Assembly: GCA_028871055.1 (NCBI GenBank) | Contig: JAGWON010000001.1 | Coordinates: 62,001-126,000, forward strand | Reading direction: 5' to 3' | Source of the DNA: Alphaproteobacteria bacterium | GTDB taxonomy: Bacteria; Pseudomonadota; Alphaproteobacteria; ATCC43930; CGMCC-115725 | Length of the DNA: 64,000 nucleotides | In this document: positions 45,936-49,363 of the stretch, in pieces | How the letters are laid out: each line of letters opens with the position of its first letter | How positions within the stretch are numbered: position 1 is the first letter of the stretch | Notes under the pieces: generated by a model | What the model was told of the DNA's origin: nothing | The model's input: the letters and a program-made list of their open reading frames with translations, nothing else | Database searches by the model: none | Program-made: the position numbers and the translations under genes

Positions 45936-46391
45936 ATGGTCCGGCTCACCAAGAAGCTGCTGTTCGCGATCGAAGCGGTGCTCGACATCGCCTACAACGC
46001 GGGCACGCTGCCGGTGCAATCGGGCGAGATCACCCGGCGCCAGGGCATTCCGCGCCGCTATCTCGAGCAGGTGCTGCAACAACTGGTGCGCGCCGGCATC
46101 CTCGGCGGCGTGCGCGGGCCGCGCGGCGGCTATCGCCTGGCGCGCGAGCGCCGGCGCATCAGCCTGGGCGAGATCGTGCGCGTGGTGCGCGCGCTCGACG
46201 GCGGCGAGGATCCGCTGGCCGAAAGCGGCGGCGCCGAGCTTGGCCACCGCGTGGTGCGGCCGCTGTGGCAGGAGCTCAACGCCGAGGTGATAAGCCGGCT
46301 CGACGGCATCACCATCGAAGATCTTTGCCTGCGCGCCCATAAGATGGGCGTGCCGGGCGAATACGGCGCTCGCCTCGATTTCTCTATCTGA
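45936..46391 (+). CDS. Rrf2 family transcriptional regulator
   Basis: A 151-residue winged-helix regulator: [17 protein letters not shown] start, [25 protein letters not shown] recognition helix region and [15 protein letters not shown] wing. The Fe-S ligand cysteines of IscR/NsrR are absent; only one cysteine (EDLCL) is present, so it does not sense via a cluster. Its place eleven bases before cysK recalls CymR and related Rrf2 regulators of cysteine metabolism, which act through interaction with CysK; that function is inferred here from context. Confidence 0.87.
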
Positions 46392-46402: not shown

Positions 46403-47397
<995 letters not shown>

Positions 47398-47398
<1 letters not shown>

Positions 47399-48174
47399 TG
47401 GTCGAGACGCTGGCGCATCCGCTGAGCGAGGAGCAGTTTCGCCGTTACGCGCGGCACCTGATCCTCGACGAGGTCGGCGAGGAGGGCCAGGCCAAGCTGC
47501 TCAAGTCGCGCGTCCTGGTGGTCGGCGCCGGCGGATTGGGTTCGCCGCTGCTGATGTACCTGGCCGCCGCGGGTGTCGGCACGCTCGGCATCGTCGACGA
47601 CGACGAGGTCGATCTGCCCAATCTGCAGCGCCAGATCGTTCACGCGACGTCCAGTATCGGCCGGCCCAAGACCGCGAGCGCGCGGGCGACGCTCGCCGCG
47701 CTCAATCCCGACATCCGCGTCGAAACCCACGCCATCCAGCTCGACGAGCGCAACGCCCGCGACATCGTCGCCGGCTACGACCTGGTCGCCGACGGCAGCG
47801 ACAATTTCGCGACGCGCTATCTGCTGAACGATCTGTGCTACCAGCTTCGCAAGACGCTCGTCGGCGCGGCGCTGTCGCCGTTCGATGGCCAGCTTTCGAC
47901 CTTCAAGGCCTATCTCGGTCCGCCGCATCCCTGCTACCGCTGCCTGTTCCGCGAGGCGCCGCCGCCCGACAGCGTGCCGCGCTGCGAGACCGCCGGCATC
48001 CTGGGCGCGATCGCCGGCGTGATGGGCACGCTGCAGGCGGTGGAGGTGCTGAAGGAGATTCTCGGCATCGGCTCCAGCCTGAGCGGCACGCTGCTGTTGT
48101 ACGATTCGCTCGCCACCGATTTCCACAAAATCGAGATTCCGCGCGATCCCGACTGCCCGACCTGCGGCGGCTGA
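47398..48174 (+). CDS. moeB: MoeB/ThiF-type adenylyltransferase
   Basis: A 258-residue E1-like enzyme that adenylates the C-terminus of a small sulfur-carrier protein (MoaD or ThiS). ATP site VVGAGGLGSPLLMYLAAAGVG, DDDEVDLPNLQRQIVH, DGSDNFATRYLLND and two zinc-binding CxxC pairs (CYRC and CPTC) are present. No rhodanese domain is attached. Neighbours cysK and a ModE-like regulator with modA suggest work in molybdopterin synthesis, so MoeB is favoured over ThiF. Confidence 0.88.
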
Positions 48175-48182
48175 GGCGGCGC

Positions 48183-48521
48183 TTGGCGAGGCTCACGCTG
48201 CGCGTCGACCTCGGCCCCGGCAAAGCCATCGGACCGGGCAAGATCCGGCTGCTGGAAGCGGTCCGCGACAGCGGCTCGATCTCGCGCGGCGGCCGCGCGC
48301 TGGGCATGTCCTATCGCCGCGCCTGGCTGCTGATCGACAGCCTCAACCGTACGTTCCGGCACAAGGTGGTGACGGCCCGGCCCGGCGGCGAGAGTGGCGG
48401 CGGTGCGCGGCTGACGCCATTCGGCCTGGCGCTCATCGCCCGTTACCGCGCGATCGAGCGCCGCGCGCAGACCGCCGCGACGCGCGATCTCGCCACGCTC
48501 CAGCGCGCGCTGCGGCGCTAG
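48183..48521 (+). CDS. modE: Short ModE-type (molybdate-responsive) winged-helix regulator
   Basis: A 112-residue LysR-like/ModE N-terminal DNA-binding domain only: GKIRLLEAVRDSGSISRGGRALGMSYRRAWLLIDSLNR (helix-turn-helix landmarks GSISRGGRAL and MSYRRAW) and GGGARLTPFGLALIARYR wing/dimer region. It lacks the C-terminal Mop/TOBE molybdate-binding domains of E. coli ModE, so metal sensing must occur otherwise, or the protein acts constitutively. TTG 48183 has GAGG six bases upstream. Its stop codon overlaps that of the convergent modA (CTAG shared). A ModE operator lies just upstream of modA. Confidence 0.87.
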   Translation: MARLTLRVDLGPGKAIGPGKIRLLEAVRDSGSISRGGRALGMSYRRAWLLIDSLNRTFRHKVVTARPGGESGGGARLTPFGLALIARYRAIERRAQTAATRDLATLQRALRR

Positions 48522-49276
48522 AACAGCACTTTGAAGCCCTGCTTTTCGAAGAACGGGCGCGCCGGCGGCGACGCCAGGAAATCCAAGAGCTGCGCAGCGC
48601 CGGGCTTGGCGCCGACGGTGAGCGCGGCGGGATAGATCACCGGCGGATAGCTGCCGGCCGGAAAGACGCCGGCGACCTCGACATCGGGCTCGGCGATGGC
48701 ATCGGTCCGATAGACGACGCCAAGCTGTGCCTCGCTGCGCGCCACCAGCCGCAACGCCGCCCGCACGTCGGCCGCGCGCGCGATCCTGGCCTTGACTGAG
48801 TCCCAGATGCCGAGCTTGGTGAGCGCGGCCTTACCATACATGCCCGCCGGCACGGCATTGGGATCGGCCATCGCCAGCGGTCCGTTCTTGAGGCGTGAGG
48901 CGAGATCGGCGCCGGGCGCCAAATCGATCTTGGTGCCGCTCGATGCCGGCGCCACCAGCACCAGTTCGTTGCCGAGCAGGTTGCGCCGCGTCGCCGGCTG
49001 GATGAGCTTGCGGGTTTCTACGTAATTCATCCAGGCGAGATCCGCCGAAATGAACAGGTCGGCCGGCGCACCGGCTTCGATCTGCCGGGCGAGCGCGGAA
49101 CTCGCCGCATAGGAGATCCGCACCGTGTCGCCGCTTTTCGCCTGGTAGGCGGTGGCAGCGGCGTCGAGCGCGTTCTTCAGGCTGGCCGCGGCGAAGACGG
49201 TGAGGGTCTCGGCGCGTGCGGGCTGGATCGCCAGTGCCGCCGCCAAGACCGCCGCCAGAAACCGCCTGCGCCGCAT
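48518..49276 (-). CDS. modA: Molybdate ABC transporter substrate-binding protein
   Basis: A 252-residue periplasmic binding protein for molybdate and tungstate. Signal peptide LAAVLAAALAIQPARA|E, then TLTVFAAASLKNAL (the first ligand-binding serine in AASL) and SSALARQIEAGAPADLFISAD, NELVLVAP, DPNAVPAG and YRTDA, all typical of ModA. No modB or modC is near; neighbouring genes are modE-like on one side and a hydroxyacid dehydrogenase on the other, so the membrane parts must be elsewhere. GAGGAGAC precedes ATG 49276, inside the ModE operator region. Confidence 0.93.
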   Translation of the reverse strand: MRRRRFLAAVLAAALAIQPARAETLTVFAAASLKNALDAAATAYQAKSGDTVRISYAASSALARQIEAGAPADLFISADLAWMNYVETRKLIQPATRRNLLGNELVLVAPASSGTKIDLAPGADLASRLKNGPLAMADPNAVPAGMYGKAALTKLGIWDSVKARIARAADVRAALRLVARSEAQLGVVYRTDAIAEPDVEVAGVFPAGSYPPVIYPAALTVGAKPGAAQLLDFLASPPARPFFEKQGFKVLF

Positions 49277-49287
49277 GCTCGTCTCCT

Positions 49288-49311
49288 CGTTATATTTTAT
49301 AGAATATAACG
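49288..49311. promoter_or_regulatory. ModE operator (Mop box) of modA
   Basis: A perfect inverted repeat CGTTATATT-ttatag-AATATAACG: 9-bp arms with a 6-bp spacer, the same half-site and spacing known for ModE sites (CGTTATAT core). It lies 12-35 bases upstream of the modA start and overlaps the region just ahead of the Shine-Dalgarno, so binding should block modA expression when molybdate is plentiful. It stands in a very AT-rich island in a 70% GC region. Confidence 0.88.
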
Positions 49312-49363
49312 AAGAAGCATGCATCAAAAAAGGGCGAGACGGCCCAGCGCGATGGACCGGACG

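Follow-up and report, generated by a model that had tools for sequence, protein, structure and literature searches.

Molybdate-uptake genes at two loci: evidence for a split regulon, probably under one short ModE likely to read the molybdenum cofactor

In the stretch of alphaproteobacterial DNA analysed here (64,000 nucleotides, hereafter the window), a gene for a metal regulator without a sensor faces a gene for a transporter part without its partners. What does such a regulator control, with what does the orphan component work and how is the metal sensed? The sequence-only reading had described the locus as a minimal modE-modA pair. The apparent paradox is cleared once the locus is considered as one part of a split regulon, controlled by a known type of short ModE. 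It is highly probable that molybdate uptake depends here on genes at two separate loci that form one regulon; a single short ModE probably governs both and likely reads the molybdenum cofactor.

The modE gene (48183..48521, plus strand, TTG start) encodes a short form of 112 aa consisting of the winged-helix DNA-binding domain only: HTH_1 is its sole Pfam domain and TOBE/Mop (PF03459) is absent. The description of a bare DNA-binding domain is thus confirmed. Moreover, the stop codon which leaves the protein without a molybdate-binding Mop domain is kept in the congeners G001 and G003. Among solved structures its closest relative is 2ijl (phmmer E 3.1e-30, nearly the whole protein being aligned), which we take to be the short ModE of Agrobacterium tumefaciens, locus Atu2564. 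ModE-S is presumably the name given to that Agrobacterium protein by Hoffmann et al. 2016. The alignment with E. coli ModE (1o7l, 1b9m; E 8e-13) is confined to the DNA-binding domain. A ModE-type winged-helix domain is present by the match to 2ijl, while the TIGR00637 score (E 4.8e-24, 84.3 bits) is below the cut-off of 98.5; it must be noted that this cut-off is reached by no ModE match in any of the 61 genomes searched. The alignment of 15 short ModE proteins contains 29 invariant columns. ModE described here belongs to the known class of short, stand-alone ModE DNA-binding domains.

According to the profile search the genome contains one ModE, i.e., this short form. A full-length ModE elsewhere, for which the sequence-only reading had left room, was looked for and none was found in the genome. 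The three TOBE hits of the genome (a 68-aa Mop protein, modC and a wtpC-like ATPase) are not fused to a ModE domain, and the two C-terminal Mop domains of a full-length ModE are found neither in the protein nor among these hits.

The modA gene (48518..49276, minus strand) encodes a molybdate-binding periplasmic protein of 252 aa, with a TIGR01256 score of 183.4 bits for a cut-off of 62.5 and a best E of 6.2e-67 against solved ModA proteins. It is the only modA over the family cut-off in the whole genome. The two genes are convergent and, as had been remarked, their stop codons have the bases CTAG in common (48518..48521). The same overlap is seen in G001 and G003, the two congeners for which the locus could be located.

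A predicted ModE operator is localized at 49287..49312, 11 bp ahead of the start of modA. The palindrome CGTTATATT-N6-AATATAACG was first described with perfect 9-bp arms (49288-49311); it is indeed present, but its arms are really 10 bp long. Perfect 9-bp inverted repeats are not rare, since 26 registers occur in the window. Among them the modA palindrome alone is A+T-rich (about 20% GC vs. at least 56% GC in all others, the window having 68% GC). It is distinguished by this composition, by its position before modA and by its match to the E. coli consensus. The latter is quoted as ATCGNTATATA-N6-TATATANCGAT in PMC545781, and 16 of its 20 defined positions agree with the modA operator by our own count. 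The 9-bp-arm pattern (up to three mismatches) gives one match in the window and none in 100 shuffles; no second copy was found in the 3.07-Mb genome.

Using 8-bp arms for scoring, the modA boxes of this genome, G001 and G003 reach 16/16 and lie 11-12 bp before modA. The arms are invariant in the three leaders (3/3), whereas variation is seen in the 8-bp centre and in the flanks, as would be expected of a selected protein-binding site. The association of a near-ideal ModE box with a short ModE, proposed from the window, is thus well supported. A search around the modA box gave no consensus sigma-70 promoter, and an overlap of the box with a promoter is putative.

The view that modBC is missing does not hold for the genome. 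Contig C17 contains modB (233.8 bits for a TIGR02141 cut-off of 182.6), followed by modC (TIGR02142, 430.9 bits for a cut-off of 285.05). In this neighbourhood a cystathionine-lyase-like gene (named by eye) is found upstream, and modA is absent. It is therefore true that modA stands at its locus without permease and ATPase partners, but false at the level of the genome, where the three ModABC components (TIGR01256, TIGR02141, TIGR02142) are present over their cut-offs. There is one modB over cut-off. A second modB-like hit and a weak second modA hit are accounted for by a WtpABC-like transporter on contig C5; its WtpBC has its own WtpA, and ModBC has no other ModA in the genome.

The search of the genome for further ModE boxes gave a matching box before modB on C17, CGTTGTATATGATTGGATATAATA, placed as at modA. 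This box is degenerate (3/16 positions off), i.e., 13/16 arm positions agree. Mo-boxes thus precede molybdate transport genes at both loci. All four genomes of the genus (4/4) have modBC without an adjoining modA and a box before modB: the scores for this genome, G001, G002 and G003 are 13, 15, 14 and 14 of 16, respectively, and the boxes lie 10-13 bp before modB. For comparison, 12 of 2000 random 220-bp stretches score at least 13, the pool itself containing real boxes. In the whole genome the 8-bp-arm pattern with up to three mismatches gives 4 sites, those of modA and modB included, and the reversed pattern gives none. A 13/16 site at C19:59300-59323 (positions 1501-1524 of L133), in the A+T-rich leader of a cysG-like gene, was rejected as a member of the regulon because the equivalent region in three congeners scores at best 10-11/16. 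A box-like site at C24:317, shortly before a secE-like gene, is taken as chance.

The counts (a single modA and a single modB over cut-off, one ModE) point to a single ModABC transporter whose genes lie at two places. Taken with the matching boxes, this is the simplest reading and would imply a shared control. With molybdenum in sufficient supply, the modA palindrome and the modBC box would each be occupied by a dimer of ModE, and transcription would be stopped; when molybdenum is short, ModE would be released, ModA and ModBC would be produced and they would assemble into one high-affinity transporter. It must be noted that no ModE was found in the congener G002 (an assembly 85% complete), though the modB box is present there.

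The absence of tandem molybdate-binding domains from this ModE implies another way of sensing the metal. Hoffmann et al. 2016 are said to have reported that the Agrobacterium short ModE represses modABC according to the molybdenum cofactor and not to molybdate; in an Agrobacterium transposon screen, cofactor genes were reportedly hit and mop was not. By analogy, the short ModE described here most likely senses the molybdenum cofactor, i.e., without a metal-binding domain it would read molybdenum status indirectly. The genome contains a MoaA-type protein, 13 xanthine-oxidase-family places and 9 PF00384 places (some of which may be complex I subunits), hence a demand for the cofactor. A formate-dehydrogenase-like molybdoenzyme (L130, C29:60043-61503) has one in-frame TGA, in NQARV*HGPTVASL, which is likely a selenocysteine site.

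The gene directly upstream of modE is moeB (47398..48174, plus strand), encoding a ThiF/MoeB family adenylyltransferase of 258 aa (PF00899; NF004281 MoeB 293.3 bits for a cut-off of 266). It is preceded in the same gene string by cysK (46403..47398, plus strand; TIGR01139 437.8 bits for a cut-off of 350.95) and, at the head, by an Rrf2-family regulator (45936..46391, plus strand; TIGR00738 101.1 bits for a cut-off of 73.3), whose position is conserved in G001 and G003. The order rrf2-cysK-moeB then modE is found in this genome, G001 and G003, i.e., in every genome of the genus where the locus was found. Cofactor synthesis, many molybdoenzymes and a moeB adjoining modE fit cofactor sensing.

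Does this gene string say more about the signal? MoeB, or an intermediate of its step, could tell the short ModE the cofactor status, e.g., by a MoeB-ModE contact. If true, this tie would let cofactor synthesis switch molybdate uptake directly; we regard it as a long shot. Outside the genus the linkage is not general: in the Agrobacterium-type locus L207, modE is preceded by a gene for an S58 peptidase. Of the 80 named loci, L136 (the G003 locus itself) is the only one with moeB next to modE, and among 40 fetched loci of relatives a MoeB match beside modE is found only in L060 and L062, in a scan with an out-of-frame query by which a diverged moeB could be missed. The moeB-modE string of the genus is a concrete lead on the signal of the short ModE. 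Moreover, as its predicted targets are few (modA and modBC), the system is a small model for finding which molecule signals cofactor status to it.

The search for a Mop-domain protein was successful: a stand-alone Mop protein of 68 aa is encoded on contig C13. The missing sensor could thus act in trans, the short ModE and this Mop forming a two-piece ModE that senses molybdate directly, and mop genes are found near modE or modA in several relatives, some of them carrying boxes. The mop of this genome has no box (9/16) and is on a different contig from modE, and mop was reportedly not hit in the transposon screen. G003 (100% complete) and four f2/g12 genomes have a short ModE without a Mop match (E 1e-8), though a diverged Mop could escape such a search. 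These relatives make a trans-acting Mop partner unlikely; as an essential partner it is not supported, and we consider a split sensor very improbable. We give just as little weight to a short ModE blind to molybdenum (constitutive or decayed), with modA serving another transporter, e.g., the WtpABC-like set on C5. Such a view would agree with the lack of a sensor domain and with a modA alone at its locus. It is opposed by the conservation of modE, its stop codon and the box in the genus and by the 29 invariant columns of the short ModE alignment; moreover, the WtpBC proteins have their own WtpA while ModBC would be left without a ModA.

The palindrome could also be taken for an RNA hairpin or a riboswitch in the modA leader instead of an operator, since its long self-complementary arms stand immediately before the ribosome-binding region. 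This is extremely unlikely. No Rfam match was found at the modA and modB loci and, for a Moco riboswitch, neither L001 nor L002 gave a covariance hit at the gathering score; no terminator-like site was found at the modA box, which rejects a terminator in the leader. The arms never vary, hence no compensatory change is seen; they match the ModE consensus quoted in PMC545781, and the box recurs before modB. The split regulon under one short ModE is thus retained as the preferred reading.

How widespread are these features? ModE places scoring at least 56 bits number 42, in 36 of 61 related genomes (this one included). Besides the window, 40 of the remaining 41 places were read (G035 being left out), and 40 of the 41 proteins read end at most 152 aa from the start of the match, which leaves no room for two Mop domains. 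At L045 (G015 C396, a contig end), ModE is followed by a Mop-like sequence, recognized by eye, up to the end of the contig. The ModE of G015 is likely full-length; the family shared with G015 probably has long as well as short forms of ModE. At L084 (G001 C41:1-11000), a second short ModE is found beside wtpABC-like genes, mop and another modA (leader box 15/16). The stand-alone mop genes of several relatives (L054, L070, L071, L077 and L083) have ModE-like boxes of 12-14/16, vs. 9/16 for the mop of this genome.

In other species, 80 named loci were chosen by similarity to the short ModE described here. In 33 of them all three genes, modA, modB and modC, are found no more than 4.5 kb from modE, and in 16 modA is found without modB or modC near modE, contig ends not being allowed for. 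A short modE convergent with modCBA, with a box before modA, is found in many named alphaproteobacteria and at many rhizobial loci, Agrobacterium included. The layout described here can be read as this arrangement with modBC moved away, the direction of change being presumed. Scores of at least 13/16 are obtained for 32 of 49 modA leaders of named loci, the low scores being partly due to starts estimated from alignments. Among 20 modA starts in relatives (counting this genome but not the incomplete modA at the edge of L063), 14 score at least 12/16 and 9 at least 13/16. No modA occurs in the approximately 1.5 kb upstream of modB at 16 of 30 modB loci (a set including three low-identity ModB), and one more is cut off; split modBC is therefore not confined to the genus. 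Several split modBC loci outside the genus have no box before modB.

Among the closest known systems are the Agrobacterium-type loci. The Agrobacterium short ModE (2ijl) is likewise a DNA-binding domain only, encoded convergently with mod genes, and these loci have a Mo-box (14/16) before modA as well. They differ in that modE faces a complete modCBA (L206, L207 and L210), whereas the modE described here faces modA alone and modBC is elsewhere; the upstream gene also differs, i.e., moeB here and the peptidase gene in L207. The full-length ModE of E. coli has a homologous DNA-binding domain, and the box found here is near the E. coli consensus as given in PMC545781; the tandem molybdate-binding domains of E. 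coli ModE are absent from the present protein. Stand-alone ModE DNA-binding domains were described in Desulfovibrio in 2004 (PMC545781). These single-domain proteins also have no molybdate-binding domains, but their predicted site is there a different repeat, CGGTCACG-N14-CGTGACCG, while the present site is of the E. coli type. Compared with the usual ModABC transporter, ModA, ModB and ModC are all present over the TIGR cut-offs, but their genes are divided between two loci, both of which have a ModE-like box. The split layout and the moeB linkage are thus modest local features of a tidy and largely ordinary system.
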